A program made the position numbers and the translations under genes. The notes below the pieces were generated by a model. It saw only the letters and a list, made by a program, of their open reading frames with translations. It had not been told where the DNA came from and ran no database searches. From Bifidobacterium tsurumiense (GTDB lineage Bacteria > Actinomycetota > Actinomycetes > Actinomycetales > Bifidobacteriaceae), in contig NZ_JGZU01000004.1 of assembly GCF_000741765.1 (NCBI RefSeq), positions 62,001 through 126,000 of the forward strand: a stretch of 64,000 nt of DNA. The letters run 5' to 3'. Of the stretch, positions 53,742-60,833 are shown in pieces; within the stretch, counting starts at the first letter, position 1, and each line of letters opens with the position of its first letter.

Positions 53742-56021
53742 CTATTGAGCGCAACCGAATCGATACAACGCCCACCCTTGCGCGAAATCACCCAGATAGC
53801 TGTAATCGCGAACCATCGTCAAGGTGCCATCCGCGATGTATTGGTCAATGAGATCAGTGCGATGGAAGGGATCATATTGCTCGCGGAAGGTGAACATCTG
53901 CAAACTCGGCGCCTGCGGACCCATGCTGAGGAAGTATTCCGGTGTCGTATTGCCTATCGGGCATACGGTGTTCAGCACTTCTTCATCATTGCCTGAATCA
54001 AATGCCTGCTCCACCTGGCCGAAAATGGCACCATTCCCCTCGGCCATCGGATTATAAATCGGATACAGCATATTCGTGCCGAAAGCAGCCATGCCATACA
54101 TCGAGCCATTCAAAGGATCAGAGATCACCACTGATTGAGAACCAACGACATTGCTCACATCCTGCAAAACCTCATATTTTGCTGCCGTCAATTGCTCATC
54201 TGGTTGTTCGTTATGCAGCAGCACTCGGCTGTGCACGGTCGCGCTTAAATCTTCTCGAGCGGTATTGCCAAACTGGCAGGCAATCGCTAAGGCGGCCACC
54301 AATACCAACGCTACCCATGCCTGGAGAGGCAAACCATGCAAAGAATATGCAGCAATATGACCCGCCTCTGATGCCGCATTCGTGACGTCCGCTTCCGCTT
54401 CCTGCCCGATAATATTTGCTTCATCGCCATGCAGCTCAGAATGAGGAACATCCGCATTCTCGCCTTGAATAGATGCAACTGCACATTCGCTCTGTGACGC
54501 AACGGCACAATCGTCAAGGGCTTTCGCAGTATCGGCTGCCTCATTCGCAGTACCGAATGTCTCACTCACATTGCCTACTGCCTCAGAAGCATCTGCAACT
54601 TCATCTTCCCCAACAGCTTCTGCCTGTGCTGCAACCGAAGACGGAACATCCCCGTTCGCACGCCCATCAAACCCTGCGATCGCAGATACTGCGAACACCA
54701 GTAAAGGCAGAACACCCAAAGGAATCATGGTCATTGGTCGAGGTTCTGATCGATACCAAGCAGCGGTCACAATATTGGCGAACCAACCGGTGATTGCTGT
54801 TGAACAAACGTATACCAAACCGACCAATGCCCAAGCACAGATCAAGGAGATGGCATCTCGACGCGCAACCCCGAATCGCCGTGGCTTCAATATGACGAAG
54901 ATCCCGATACTCGCCGCGACAACCGTCATCAAAGCCATGAATCCGCCCGCGATTCCGGATATATTGCTGCTCACAAATACCCATATTGCTTCGGGAACGG
55001 AACGATTTGCGACGAAAGTATGGAACCAGCTTGCTGGGTTGAGATAACGGCTTGACTTATATGTGGCAGTCATGAAGAAATAGAATGCAACGGCGCCTGC
55101 CAGAACAGTTATCCCCAACCCGACGATCAGTCTCCACGGCAATCTGGTCAGCACGAAGGGCGCCATCAACAAAAGCCACGTGAATACGATGCGCGGATGG
55201 GCGAATATGCACAGCCCACCAAGAATGAGCGTAGCTACAAGCCAAGGAAGAATATGGTTGCGCTGGGATATCGCGTCGAATAGTTTCAATGTCACGAATA
55301 GCCAAAATGGCAGTAACGATGTGGCCAAACCATATGCCAGAAGAGGACCATTCGCCAGCATGAAAAATGGGTGACTTGCAGAGGACACTGAAAGAATCGG
55401 CACAATAACAGCCATCGCGCAGGCAAATGGTCGCCAAATGACTTGAGATTGATCGGCTTGGGCGCTTTCCTCTATGCCCGAATCCGCAGCTTCGCCACTA
55501 TGGCGCATCGCTGACCGAGACGCAACGTCGTTGGTTGACAAACCTGCCGGGGAATTGGTCCGCGTTGGTGAATACCCGCAGTTCATATGCCGACGGGGTA
55601 CGATTCGAGTAAGACGCGCATCCACTCCACGCGTCCAATACCATGCAAGAAGTTGCACCCTGCGGCCCAAAGAATGACCAGCGCCAAACAGCCACACCAC
55701 ATTCACTGCGGTGTAGATATTCATCGTGACGCCGAATAACGCAGCAAGCTTGATAAGCCCTGCTGCCATAAGGTGGAATAGAGGCGGATAATAAGCGTCG
55801 TTCGGCCACAGGTGCGTCGCTGCGCCGATGCCCTCACTGAGAATTTTGCGAATGAAATAGTAGTGTGCGGGGGCATCCACCTCTTGTAAGGGCAGATTCC
55901 AAATCTCACTGCCACCCGGGAACCATGCCAGCACGATACCGAAAGCCACCAGCACGCCGAGAATCATGCAGGCTGGAAGTGACCATCGCTTCACAACATT
56001 CAATACCTTCACCACTGTCAT
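53742..56021 (-). CDS. Large membrane protein, DUF6541-like
   Basis: The start is the ATG at 56021 (MTVVKVLNVVKRWSLPACMI) preceded by GAGGTTAGG; the frame reaches 56069 without support. The 759-residue product has ten or more helices, an early outside loop EVDAPAHYYFIRKILSEG with acidic residues near the membrane, and a hydrophilic acidic stretch (about 490-570, rich in A, E, S, V) inside a cytoplasmic loop before the last helix and a C-terminal outside domain. The pattern is that of actinobacterial DUF6541 proteins, GT-C-like membrane proteins tied to wall polysaccharides. The substrate is unknown. It is divergent from the ABC permease gene. Confidence 0.72.
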   Translation of the reverse strand: MTVVKVLNVVKRWSLPACMILGVLVAFGIVLAWFPGGSEIWNLPLQEVDAPAHYYFIRKILSEGIGAATHLWPNDAYYPPLFHLMAAGLIKLAALFGVTMNIYTAVNVVWLFGAGHSLGRRVQLLAWYWTRGVDARLTRIVPRRHMNCGYSPTRTNSPAGLSTNDVASRSAMRHSGEAADSGIEESAQADQSQVIWRPFACAMAVIVPILSVSSASHPFFMLANGPLLAYGLATSLLPFWLFVTLKLFDAISQRNHILPWLVATLILGGLCIFAHPRIVFTWLLLMAPFVLTRLPWRLIVGLGITVLAGAVAFYFFMTATYKSSRYLNPASWFHTFVANRSVPEAIWVFVSSNISGIAGGFMALMTVVAASIGIFVILKPRRFGVARRDAISLICAWALVGLVYVCSTAITGWFANIVTAAWYRSEPRPMTMIPLGVLPLLVFAVSAIAGFDGRANGDVPSSVAAQAEAVGEDEVADASEAVGNVSETFGTANEAADTAKALDDCAVASQSECAVASIQGENADVPHSELHGDEANIIGQEAEADVTNAASEAGHIAAYSLHGLPLQAWVALVLVAALAIACQFGNTAREDLSATVHSRVLLHNEQPDEQLTAAKYEVLQDVSNVVGSQSVVISDPLNGSMYGMAAFGTNMLYPIYNPMAEGNGAIFGQVEQAFDSGNDEEVLNTVCPIGNTTPEYFLSMGPQAPSLQMFTFREQYDPFHRTDLIDQYIADGTLTMVRDYSYLGDFAQGWALYRFGCAQ

Positions 56022-56289
56022 CCTAACCTCAGAGCACAACCAATACCAAGGATGGCATCCAGCGAGCATCCATGATTCTCAGGTTGTTTTCAGCATTCTG
56101 CAAGGCCGATATCAGTATCACGCAAGATAACGTACACGTACGCACACCATAGTGTGGCCTACGGGATGTCTTCGCTTCCGCGATCGCCTCGCTAGATTGC
56201 ATCCCGGCCAACGGTATAATGCAAACGCAAATAACGACGCGGTTCGCCGATGCTGCCGCGCATAACTAGAGAAACCGGAGAGGCACCGC

Positions 56290-57774
56290 ATGTTCGTTGT
56301 CAAGAACGCGTGGTCAACGCTGAAGCGCCATCCGTGGCGCACTACGCTCACTTGTATAGTTACCCTAATCATCACGACCACCACGGTGTTCTCCACTGCG
56401 GTTGTGGAGGCTGCCGACAACGCCTCCGGCAGTGAATATCAAGCGCTCAAGCCAGTGGTTGCCCTCCATAGAACGGCGGCGACCGAAGCCAAACGCGATG
56501 GAGCAGACCCCGATTGGACCAAGAACTACCTGACTTGGACTGACTACACGAACTACGCAACCGCGGCACAGCAAGCGAATTTGCAGTTCTCGTATACGCT
56601 CACGATATCCATGCCTGCCCGACAGACCGACAAATTCAAGGCAATTGCCGGTACTGCCGATCAGTCCGCCGACAAAACAGGCGGCGAATTCACACTCACT
56701 GGCTTCTACACTCAAGGCGCCCAAGATTCCAATCCTGCCGGCGCAATCACCATTGTGGACGGCAAGGCTCTCAACTATGACAGCTCGAATACCGCAACTG
56801 ACGAGGTATTGATATCCAAAGCCATAGCCGATGCGAATAACCTCAAAGTCGGTGATTCCATAACCGTTGCCAATCCCACCAATGCTGATACAACATACAC
56901 TTTCAAAATCCAAGGTATTTACACTTACAACGACACAGCTGCAAGTGGCGAAGGTTCAGACGCCAAGCTGGCCAAGGATAATCGAGACAACGCGATTTAC
57001 ATGACCTACACCGCTTTTGCCGGCAGCAATCTCGACACTTCCGACGGCACAGGTTGGTCCATCCCGGATTTGGATATCCAGTTCACACTCAACAGCGCCG
57101 CAGACTATGACACCTTCGTCAAGGCGGTCGAGGATGCGAAACTGCCTGATACCTATGAGATTGTTTCTTCCACGCTGACCGATTACAAGGCCTCGATCGC
57201 CCCGCTTGAGTCTCTTGCCAATGGAATGAGAATCGCACGCATCGTGGTGCTGGTGCTCGGAGGACTTGCTCTGCTCGCCTTGGTGATTGTGAGCATGCGG
57301 CATCGCACTTCAGAACTGGGAACCGCATTGACCGTCGGCGTGACTCGTGGCCGCATGGGACGTCAGTTCATGCTGGAAGTGCTGATTCCGACCTTCCTCG
57401 GCTTCCTTCTCGGAATGCTTGTTGCAGGATTTGCCACCAACCCGCTTGCAAAGGCGTTGGTGAACCATGATGCTCCTGTGTCATTTGGCTTGCTGCTGCA
57501 TGTGTTCTGGTATGCATTGGCAACCTATGTGGTATTGAGCTGCATTGTGGTTGGTCGCGCTGCAGCCTTCCGTACAACGACACTCTTTGCACCTCGCGAA
57601 TATGCATCCGCATTGCTTGAAAACACCGATGATGACGCGACAACCGGTGACTCGGCATCAACCTCTGTAGATACAAGCGCTGAGGACTCCGGCACCACAG
57701 TCGATACAGAAAACAGCGACAGCAACGTTGAAAGCACTGATGCAACCGTTGCCCATGACAGTGAGGAGGCGTGA
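56290..57774 (+). CDS. FtsX/MacB-type ABC transporter permease
   Basis: The 494-residue product has one helix near the N-terminus (TTLTCIVTLIITTTTVFSTAVVEAA, about 18-42), a large outside domain (about 45-310) with a MacB-like core, then three helices (about 313-337, 368-395, 402-430) including the typical MRHRTSELGTALTVGVTRGRMGRQFMLEVLIPTFLG. An acidic tail of about 60 residues follows. This four-helix plan is that of FtsX-like permeases in lipoprotein release, drug efflux and cell-envelope signalling. The start has GGAGAGGCACCGC before it. Its partner gene begins one base after the stop. Confidence 0.88.
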   Translation: MFVVKNAWSTLKRHPWRTTLTCIVTLIITTTTVFSTAVVEAADNASGSEYQALKPVVALHRTAATEAKRDGADPDWTKNYLTWTDYTNYATAAQQANLQFSYTLTISMPARQTDKFKAIAGTADQSADKTGGEFTLTGFYTQGAQDSNPAGAITIVDGKALNYDSSNTATDEVLISKAIADANNLKVGDSITVANPTNADTTYTFKIQGIYTYNDTAASGEGSDAKLAKDNRDNAIYMTYTAFAGSNLDTSDGTGWSIPDLDIQFTLNSAADYDTFVKAVEDAKLPDTYEIVSSTLTDYKASIAPLESLANGMRIARIVVLVLGGLALLALVIVSMRHRTSELGTALTVGVTRGRMGRQFMLEVLIPTFLGFLLGMLVAGFATNPLAKALVNHDAPVSFGLLLHVFWYALATYVVLSCIVVGRAAAFRTTTLFAPREYASALLENTDDDATTGDSASTSVDTSAEDSGTTVDTENSDSNVESTDATVAHDSEEA

Positions 57775-57775
57775 A

Positions 57776-59065
57776 ATGACCAAGGATGACGCCATGAATA
57801 CACCGGACGACATCACAGAGGACACCACCGAAAATACACAGGGCGATGCTTCGGTAACAGATGATAACGCCAACGCACCAGATGAGGATTTCCAATTCAG
57901 TATTGTGTTCGACGATGCTGATGATGGAGAAAACGATGACGAAATCGATTCCGAGTCTGTTCAGGAGCCGGTCATCGATGATATCGCCATCGATGACGAA
58001 TCCGATGCGTCTGCTGAAATATCAGCAGCCTCCGCTCTTGGCATTGAAGACAATATCGATGCAGACAGCAGTGCGGCGACTGATGCCGAGGCAACCGGCA
58101 GTGGTTCTGATTCAGCATCCAGCAAAGATACTTCTTCCAGTGATCTCGGCGAAGATGTTTCTTCCAATGATTCCAGCAATTCCACCAATGCAGGGAATGA
58201 CAACGAGCATACGGCCCAAGAAGCGACAGGCCAGGGCACAGCTGAGCTTGCAGATGATGGCACACGAGGCTCAGAGCCATCCGCGTCAACGAATGCAACT
58301 GGCACAAAAGTCGGCGAACCGGTTACCGCCATCGCATCGCAGTTAGACCGTAAGCTATCCCGAAACGATGACAACATATTCCTGCGGGCAAATCCCACCT
58401 TCGCTTTCAACGATGTGACGCTGACCAACCGCAAGACCGGACGCAATGTGCTTGACCGTCTCGATCTGCGTTTCTTCAACGGGTCCTTGTATGCAGTGCA
58501 AATTGATGAGGACGCCGAACAGCGTGCCGCATTCATGTCCGTGGCATCGGGTTTGACAATCCCCACCATGGGTACTGTCACATTGAAAAGCACCAATCTC
58601 GCCGGATTGGATGGTGCCCAGACTCGTTCATATCGTATTGGCATCATTCCGCAGCAGTACGCATTGCGTCTGGATTTGAACGCGGCAGCAAATATCAGAT
58701 ATGCCATGGACGCCTCAGGCCGCAATTTCCTGCGTCCCAAGGACGATATTGCACAGATGCTCCTTGAGCAGGTCGGATACCAAGGCGGCAGCGCACCGAT
58801 AAGCGAGGTTCCAGAAGTCGAGCGTCGTATCGCTGCGATTGCCCGGGCAATCGCCTGTGAGCCGGAGATATTGCTTGCAGACGGCATTGCTGACGGACTC
58901 GGCCAAGAGGACAGCGATCGGGTGCTGACACTCCTCACAACTATCGCCCATGGCGGACCTTGGCATTTCCGGCAGCCATATGCCGATGGCAAGCATTGCG
59001 TAATTCTGGTTACCGATTGGGGCAATGATTCACCAGCATATGATCACACATATGTGTTGGAGTGA
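57776..59065 (+). CDS. Degenerate ABC ATPase-like subunit (pseudo-enzyme) with acidic N-terminal tail
   Basis: The start is the ATG at 57776, behind GAGGAGG and one base after the permease stop, so the two are translationally coupled. The 429-residue product opens with about 195 residues rich in D, E, S, T and A. The rest aligns with a MacB-type ATPase but lacks its catalytic residues: where Walker A should be it reads QIDEDAEQRAAF, the LSGGQ site is ISEVPEVERR, Walker B LLADE is LLADG (Glu to Gly near 369), and the switch His of VTHD is Asp (VTDWGND). The Q-loop (IIPQQYAL) and ARAIACEP remain. It cannot be a normal ATPase. A regulatory or scaffold role with the permease is plausible. Confidence 0.8.
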   Translation: MTKDDAMNTPDDITEDTTENTQGDASVTDDNANAPDEDFQFSIVFDDADDGENDDEIDSESVQEPVIDDIAIDDESDASAEISAASALGIEDNIDADSSAATDAEATGSGSDSASSKDTSSSDLGEDVSSNDSSNSTNAGNDNEHTAQEATGQGTAELADDGTRGSEPSASTNATGTKVGEPVTAIASQLDRKLSRNDDNIFLRANPTFAFNDVTLTNRKTGRNVLDRLDLRFFNGSLYAVQIDEDAEQRAAFMSVASGLTIPTMGTVTLKSTNLAGLDGAQTRSYRIGIIPQQYALRLDLNAAANIRYAMDASGRNFLRPKDDIAQMLLEQVGYQGGSAPISEVPEVERRIAAIARAIACEPEILLADGIADGLGQEDSDRVLTLLTTIAHGGPWHFRQPYADGKHCVILVTDWGNDSPAYDHTYVLE

Positions 59066-59224: not shown

Positions 59225-59901
59225 TTAGTATTCAATGTCCATATGGAACTCCGCCGCCAATGCAGGCACATCGATATTCCCATATTGCTGCACCAACTCT
59301 TCCCAACGTTGGCGATTTTCCTCGCCAAAACGAGCCGCTTTGCGAGCATATGCTTCGGCTGTGAGGAATCTCGGGGGAATGGATTTGCTGTTGTATTTGT
59401 CGGCGACCATAACCACTTCTTGCTCTGGGGTTCTCGGCGAATAGTCATCCGCAGGCAATGGCAGCCCCTGGTTCACCACCTGCTCTCGACTCAACCAACC
59501 CCCGTATGGTTGCGCGCAAATTGGGCAACCTGCTCGTCTACGCCTTGTTCGAGCAGATATTCATAACCCAAAAGACCGTGGAGAATGTATCGAGGGCCAT
59601 CGAATGTGAGCTTCTCGCCGTCAGAACCATCCTGTAAGAGCACGCGATAGGTGCCGATATCGTGCAACATCGCACCCACTACGGCGAGTTCTTCATCCAG
59701 ACGACGTTCGGGCTTCACTCCCCCGATAACGGCTCCGGTTGTCACGCCTTCAAATAGGGCATTCTGTTGCTGCACGAGCTGTCTGGTTATTATGGAGACC
59801 ACGGTGCAATGTCCGTGGATCAAATCATATGCCGCCTGCGAAGGCGCAATACGTTGGTGCAGTTCATCCGCTTGTTCCAAAGTGGGAATGTATCCAGTCA
59901 T
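59225..59901 (-). pseudogene. HD-domain hydrolase broken by a one-base frameshift
   Basis: The 5' part (MTGYIPTLEQADELHQRIAP, QAAYDLIHGHCTVVSIITRQL, GAMLHDIGTYRVL, FARNHTGVG) and the 3' part (LSREQVVNQGLPLPADDYSP, VADKYNSKS) together form one HD-superfamily protein of about 226 residues. The HD pair is His-Asp in GAMLHDIG. The frame breaks near 59,493: TGA comes at 59493-59491, and one extra T would restore HTGVGLSREQ. It was either inactivated or mis-sequenced. The intact gene probably hydrolyses a nucleotide or phosphate ester; family members' substrates vary. Confidence 0.75.
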
Positions 59902-59982
59902 ATTGTGCATTATCACGCGAGCCGGCAACACTTGCGGATGGTGTCGTCATATTCTTTCAAGCTCGATACAGTGCGGCGTCGT

Positions 59983-60833
59983 TTAGGCAATGGAACGAAG
60001 CCGATATGCTCCACTCCTATTGGACACCACCAGCATCTGATTATTTTCCAGCGTCTGCCAACCCTGCTGATCAAAGCCTGAGCTTGCCACCACTACTGCC
60101 CCACTGTCCTCATCGACTGTGTAACGCATATGCCTGTAGTCGTGAGCCTTGCCTGCGCAGCCATATTCATCGTAGATTTCGATGATGCGCTCGGGTGTTT
60201 CGACTCTGCCGGCAGCACATACGGCAATGAGCTGGTCCTCGCTCTGAACCATGCAGTTGTAGCTTGATTTCGGGTAGCTTTGGCGCAACTGGCGGATCGC
60301 CTGAGCAACGGCTTCATCCAAAGCAAAACCAAAACCGACATATTCAAGAATGACAGAGAAGAATATCGCCGAATCGGTACGTCCGCCAGTGGACAGGAAG
60401 ACGCTGTGATCAACGGGGAAATCACGGTTATTCACCACGTTTCGCCCCTCGTCATCGGAAATATCGCCGTTATGAATGAAGCTCAGGCCATTGGCGAAAA
60501 ACGGCTGCTGATTTTCCATCACCAAAGGCTGATGAGAACTTGCCAATCGCAAATGCCACAATCCGCCGCGTGAGGGTTCTTGGGCCAAAATCTCATATGT
60601 TGCGTCGTGATAAGCAGCAATCGTGGCTTTGTATAACTGCGTGCCGGTTTCAGGTGACGGTTCGCCGCCATCCCGCTGATACGGAGGGTCATCAGGCAGG
60701 TGAGCAGCGCCGCACCCCAACCATCATTATGGATTCTGCTCATGCTGCGGTATTCGGCTACCCGTTCCTCACCCAAAACATCAGTAAGGCTCACTCCTTG
60801 GCCTGGAGTGGCGAAGCCCAGCAATCTGCACAT
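59983..60833 (-). pseudogene. Class II glutamine amidotransferase broken by a one-base frameshift
   Basis: The 5' part starts MCRLLGFATPGQGVSLTDVL, with nucleophile Cys2, and runs to SRIHNDGWGAALL. The 3' part continues in another frame with PDDPPYQRDGGEPSPETGTQ, LWHLRLASSHQPL, FIHNGDIS and GRTDSAIFF, reaching the stop at 59983. The two frames cross near 60,690-60,715, where one extra base would restore a protein of about 283 residues. The fold matches YafJ-like class II amidotransferases (N-terminal nucleophile, Gln hydrolysis). It and the HD gene 81 bp away are each broken once. Confidence 0.75.

Follow-up and report, generated by a model that had tools for sequence, protein, structure and literature searches.

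Within the Bifidobacteriaceae, a type VII ABC permease is encoded together with a subunit that appears to have kept the ABC-ATPase fold, lost the standard nucleotide site and remained under strong purifying selection. The copy under study lies in the window, by which we mean the whole stretch of 64,000 nucleotides of Bifidobacterium tsurumiense DNA that was analysed. Since the motifs for binding and splitting ATP are absent from the partner of the permease, it is likely that the pair works without ATP. We propose that the two proteins constitute one membrane complex that relays a signal or force across the membrane without ATP rather than acting as a pump, a reading to which we give slightly less than an even chance. 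The family-wide form of the proposal, an ABC complex that has abandoned ATP, in which the motor has become a clamp with a motif-bearing acidic tail and the mechanotransmitter has become a transmembrane receptor or a force relay that needs no ATP, stands for us at an even balance. If no energy is put in, transport is harder to explain than a relay of the receptor type, and the suggestion in the original prediction that the complex is an envelope device for mechanics or signalling is a fair reading. The loss and the conservation rest on sequence; complex formation, the direction of the relay and its function are what we infer.

The ORF calls place the permease (494 aa) at 56290..57774 and the pseudo-ATPase (429 aa) at 57776..59065, both on the + strand with one base between the two reading frames, exactly as had been predicted. 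The permease matches the Pfam domains FtsX and MacB_PCD (45.5 bits against a cut-off of 25.5 and 38.1 against 27, respectively), with the MacB-like extracytoplasmic domain at residues 100-282 and the FtsX domain at residues 318-423, and thus has both domains of a type VII (MacB/FtsX) permease. Its AlphaFold2 model has a pLDDT of 81.7 and its fold matches are type VII permeases (5xu1, HrtB, MacB, LolE and YtrF). Within the FtsX domain E342, G350, Q359 and E363 are invariant in 31 of 31 aligned permease rows. An ATPase-like gene adjoins the permease in all 132 loci, yet it is without the ATPase motifs. The pseudo-ATPase of the window scores 29.5 bits against Pfam ABC_tran (PF00005), above the gathering score of 25, and its last 225 residues (205-429; 58388..59062, + strand) are predicted still to fold as an ABC ATPase, but the Walker A, the signature, the Walker B Asp-Glu pair and the switch His of that family are missing.

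Three other genes of the window surround the pair. Upstream and divergent from the permease lies a gene for a DUF6541 protein of 775 aa (53745-56069, - strand), with relatives in 15 of 59 loci. The HD-domain protein gene downstream (59228-59931, - strand) aligns with its relatives in two frames that switch near 59494-59503, a comparison made with 4 of 30 relatives, in one of which the first-frame alignment continues at low identity; the relatives are single ORFs of about 262 aa. The window copy is either decayed or an assembly error. The glutamine amidotransferase-like gene (59986-60833, - strand) likewise aligns with its relatives in two frames, which meet near 60699-60717 (4 of 21 relatives compared), and its relatives are single ORFs of about 290 aa.

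The loss of the nucleotide site was examined in 132 fetched copies of the family, one per genome, of which 100 came from Bifidobacterium and 32 from three other genera of Bifidobacteriaceae, and in 49 intact paralogues drawn from 90 genomes with a paralogue match. Alignment with these paralogues bears out the losses claimed in the original prediction for the window copy. An acidic loop, IDEDAEQR (58502..58525, + strand), lies where the paralogues have GPSGAGKT, with the first Gly of Walker A replaced by I, the Lys by R and the Thr by A. The former signature reads VPEVE against LSGGE in the paralogues (58808..58822, + strand), so that P-E-V stands at the place of S-G-G. In the Walker B strand (58868..58885, + strand) the Asp is retained and the catalytic Glu has become Gly, the switch His has become Asp (59015..59017, + strand), and the Gln is retained in the Q-loop region (58643..58669, + strand).

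The wider family is alike in this respect. The Walker A pattern GxxGxGK[ST], the LSGG[QE] signature and the switch His are each found in 0/132 copies and in 49/49 paralogues. Walker A is also lacking in five more copies, all of the second genus, and in all 45 rows of A1. None of the 137 copies examined has Walker A, 11 other matches with this motif having been excluded as members; the intact homologues that would have spoken against the original prediction did not turn up among these copies. An alignment artefact was considered for the missing Walker A and rejected, since the motif was seen in every paralogue in the same run and an alignment-free pattern search also returned 0/132; GK[ST] anywhere in the domain occurs in 5/132 copies. 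The loop that replaces Walker A is mostly acidic, the commonest residues being D-D-D-E-Q-R (36 to 94 of 132 per place). Judged by its sequence, the pseudo-ATPase is a dead ATPase without a standard nucleotide site. A diverged branch in the second genus (L165-L180, L250-L253 and L256, with loops such as SPSGRAAL) also has no Walker A, and five of its members (L250-L253 and L256) have lost the Q-loop Gln as well. The Bombiscardovia coagulans copy (L246) is without Walker A too. In one copy, L148 of genome G018, the frame breaks just ahead of the Walker B strand, and the remaining 131 align through to the switch position.

Not every position has been erased to the same degree. The Q-loop Gln is present in 104/132 copies, the Walker B Asp in 128 and the Walker B Glu in 104, and the window copy, in which this Glu is lost, is at the degenerate end of the family. 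The column of the Walker A Lys holds R or H in 125 of the 132. Together with the retained Walker B acids, this would suit a pseudo-ATPase with a remodelled pocket that senses a nucleotide or some other ligand bound there, and pseudoenzymes with unusual nucleotide binding exist. We regard this reading as improbable: the loop has acids at the place of the phosphates, no copy retains the signature needed to close the site, and 28/132 copies, the window copy and the frame-broken copy among them, have lost all four of Lys, signature, Glu and His.

The losses are old and shared among the copies of the family. In the tree all 132 copies fall on one side of a branch with an SH-aLRT of 100, opposite nine intact paralogues and six ATPases of the window's own genome, although the tree was made by a quick method and carried long-branch warnings. 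The pseudo-ATPase family was found in 137 of 189 Bifidobacteriaceae genomes (the 132 fetched copies and the five further ones of the second genus); by genus, the carriers number 100 in that of the window, out of 112 genomes, and 27, 9 and 1 in three others. Among them is Bifidobacterium bifidum (P0012, by the source's own label), and the locus records that bear an organism name include B. thermophilum, B. boum, B. pullorum and B. asteroides. The other 12 Bifidobacterium genomes, which measure 1.5-1.8 Mb and possibly represent the Gardnerella group, have a match to neither the permease nor the pseudo-ATPase. When 396 genomes were sampled evenly across the order, in a loose first look with four candidates scored per genome, 28 matched at E 1e-35, all 28 of them in Bifidobacteriaceae. 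A single-sequence scan of genome contigs found no relatives.

Purifying selection on the dead domain is strong, and tighter than on the permease. Pairwise dN/dS (Nei-Gojobori) was computed for 234 pairs with at least 78% aligned identity and counted at dS 0.1-1, which left 207 pairs for the domain; among 35 non-overlapping pairs, chosen by domain dS alone, the median was 0.103 for the domain and 0.15 for the permease, and it was 0.37 for the tail (33 pairs). The domain had a lower value than the permease in 176 of 199 pairs. Selection on the domain is thus not relaxed, and the earlier claim that the open frame does not reflect simple decay holds. A decaying gene without function would be in keeping with the one frame-broken copy in 132, with the 12 small Bifidobacterium genomes that lack the pair and with the two frame-broken genes that neighbour it in the window. 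We consider such decay highly improbable given a median dN/dS of 0.10, lower than that of the permease, and given that the other 131 copies align as far as the switch position. A near relative (P0003) also differs from the window copy at only 2 of 225 domain residues against 28 of 204 tail residues.

The distribution of this constraint within the domain is uneven. Constraint fell at the former ATP-binding places, where the mean frequency of the top residue is below the 0.58 of the whole domain (Walker A, 0.45; signature, 0.54; switch, 0.50). The segments after the Q-loop (0.73) and after the signature (0.78) lie well above the domain mean, and the Q-loop decapeptide (0.56) does not exceed it. 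Walker B (0.69) and the D-loop (0.70) are above the mean; this conservation, like the Walker B Asp and Glu retained in most copies, exceeds the needs of a fully abandoned site and, together with the unremarkable Q-loop decapeptide, counts against the ATP-free reading.

Several observations indicate that the products of the two genes are likely to form one membrane complex. The permease lies directly upstream of the pseudo-ATPase on the same strand in 132/132 loci, and in 128 of these the first Met of the pseudo-ATPase falls within -60 to +100 bases of the permease end. Independent searches with the permease (E 1e-70) and the pseudo-ATPase (E 1e-40) were positive in the same 100 of 112 Bifidobacterium genomes and negative in the same 12. 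A third conserved operon gene was considered and rejected, as none occurs in more than 31 of 59 loci (58 loci and the window). The neighbour clusters in these 59 loci comprise the permease (50), the pseudo-ATPase (46), HD (31), Kup (23) and the amidotransferase (22), followed by two that are absent from the window (21 and 19) and by others, DUF6541 included, at 15. A cytosolic or extracellular partner was not found.

If the permease is driven at all, the ATPase would have to come from elsewhere, as no intact ATPase gene stands beside the window permease. It is conceivable that an intact ATPase drives the permease in trans, with the pseudo-ATPase as a subunit that regulates or competes. In the window's own genome the FtsX domain has ten matches, spread over seven loci, of which six have an intact ATPase and the seventh is the pseudo-ATPase locus, so candidates exist; by coordinates, each of the six adjoins its own permease. 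The closest intact paralogue of the pseudo-ATPase in this genome (G000:C9:35095-35913) likewise has its own permease. A match to this paralogue at E 1e-60 is present in 59 of the 112 Bifidobacterium genomes, all 59 among the 100 carriers, which leaves 41 carriers without it, including the single-contig assemblies G006, G011 and G083-G091. A mixed dimer would meet a further difficulty. A subunit that lacks both Walker A and signature provides no complete composite ATP site, either alone or with an intact partner, given the composite-site architecture described in PMC7756269. The half-site of the intact partner might still bind ATP in such a mixed dimer, as degenerate sites do according to PMC7756269, and it is possible that a trans-acting ATPase works as its own dimer. 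On balance we hold an ATPase in trans to be unlikely. As for the complex that does not use ATP, put forward in the original prediction, the dead ATPase, the old and shared loss and the purifying selection all speak for it, and a non-adjacent ATPase keeps the small probability just given.

The second unusual feature of the pseudo-ATPase is the long acidic tail that precedes its domain (residues 1-204; 57776..58387, + strand). It is mostly predicted to be disordered, with pLDDT mostly below 50 up to residue 180 and a predicted helix at residues 183-196. Acidic tails had been noticed on both proteins, and composition agrees, with 54 D+E and 7 K+R in residues 1-200 of the pseudo-ATPase and, in the tail that ends the permease from about residue 440, 16 D+E and no K+R in the last 54 residues. 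Across the family the tail has a median length of 173 residues (132 copies; L064, L076, L093 and L096 lack a start Met close to where the permease ends, and the open frame was used to define their tails), and tails longer than 30 residues have medians of 27% D+E and 7% K+R. A motif search of the tails found the short motif FSIVFDD in the window copy (residues 41-47; 57896..57916, + strand). Of the 132 tails, 112 have a motif of this type, compared with 0.2% of tails after shuffling, a count that is descriptive because the pattern was fitted to the data, a first version having matched 79/132 before it was widened. If the tail binds a partner, this motif is the likeliest place for it.

In the relay that we favour, two permeases and two pseudo-ATPases would come together in the manner of MacB, HrtBA or FtsEX, with the pseudo-ATPase docked on the coupling helices of the permease as a clamp that fixes their arrangement. 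Its long acidic tail, which carries the FSIVFDD-type motif, would recruit a cytosolic partner. A ligand or partner on one side, in place of ATP, may then move the transmembrane helices and the MacB-like extracytoplasmic domain. A simpler picture is that of a static scaffold, in which the pseudo-ATPase merely stabilises the permease and anchors partners without conformational signalling. The vanished ATP site and the retained co-occurrence and predicted fold are consistent with such a scaffold; the conserved FtsX residues of the permease and its type VII layout, arguably in excess of what a passive anchor needs, speak weakly against it. The computed results do not tell the relay and the scaffold apart, and we judge the scaffold to be possible but rather unlikely.

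ABC ATPases are usually taken as the engine of their complexes. If the ATP-free relay is correct, a conserved version without an engine would demonstrate a use for the type VII layout as a passive relay, and it would offer a natural system in which the structural role of the ATPase fold can be separated from the role of ATP. Since Bifidobacterium bifidum is among the carriers, the question can be tested in accessible organisms. The literature searched, mostly without subscription papers, described no such subunit and no type VII complex in which both composite sites are dead, nor did it yield a lead on FtsX-type permeases of bifidobacteria or their mutants. Both the fold and this kind of permease are familiar; a conserved type VII family with both composite sites erased was not found in that literature.

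Of the known systems, the heme exporter HrtBA (PDB 7w7a, 7w78) resembles the pair in predicted fold and, weakly, in sequence. The HrtBA structure was solved with Mg-AMPPNP, whereas the pseudo-ATPase is without Walker A or signature and, unlike HrtBA, bears an acidic tail of about 200 residues. The permease and ATPase folds of the type VII systems MacB, LolCDE, YtrEF, BceAB and the Streptococcus pneumoniae transporter 5xu1 also match those of the pair, and these systems have working ATPases. The FtsEX and ADOP families were considered for membership and rejected. The pair scores far below the NCBIfam cut-offs for FtsE (50.8 of 264.85 bits) and FtsX_actino (12.2 of 250 bits), and for the duplicated permeases of ADOP the score is 34.6 of 622.3 bits (TIGR03434). 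FtsEX is nevertheless a precedent for a relay without transport, being, according to PMC11627006, a type VII ABC complex that transmits a signal and is not a transporter, but FtsE is an active ATPase and its motifs are absent from the pseudo-ATPase.

Exporters with one degenerate site, such as TM287/288, TAP, CFTR and Pdr5, have lost several motifs, as the pseudo-ATPase has. According to PMC7756269, such exporters keep their other site canonical, and Pdr5 has changes in every motif of one site. This heterodimeric class was rejected for the pair, as Walker A and signature are both missing from the same subunit, so that a homodimer, the make-up we infer, would have no canonical site at all. The nearest relative of the pseudo-ATPase in its own genome is the intact paralogue mentioned above, with which it has the MDASG segment in common. 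The permease of that paralogue is also the closest to the window permease among the loci compared (274 bits against 37 for the next). The paralogue has 273 aa with about 40 residues before its domain, compared with the long tail of the pseudo-ATPase.
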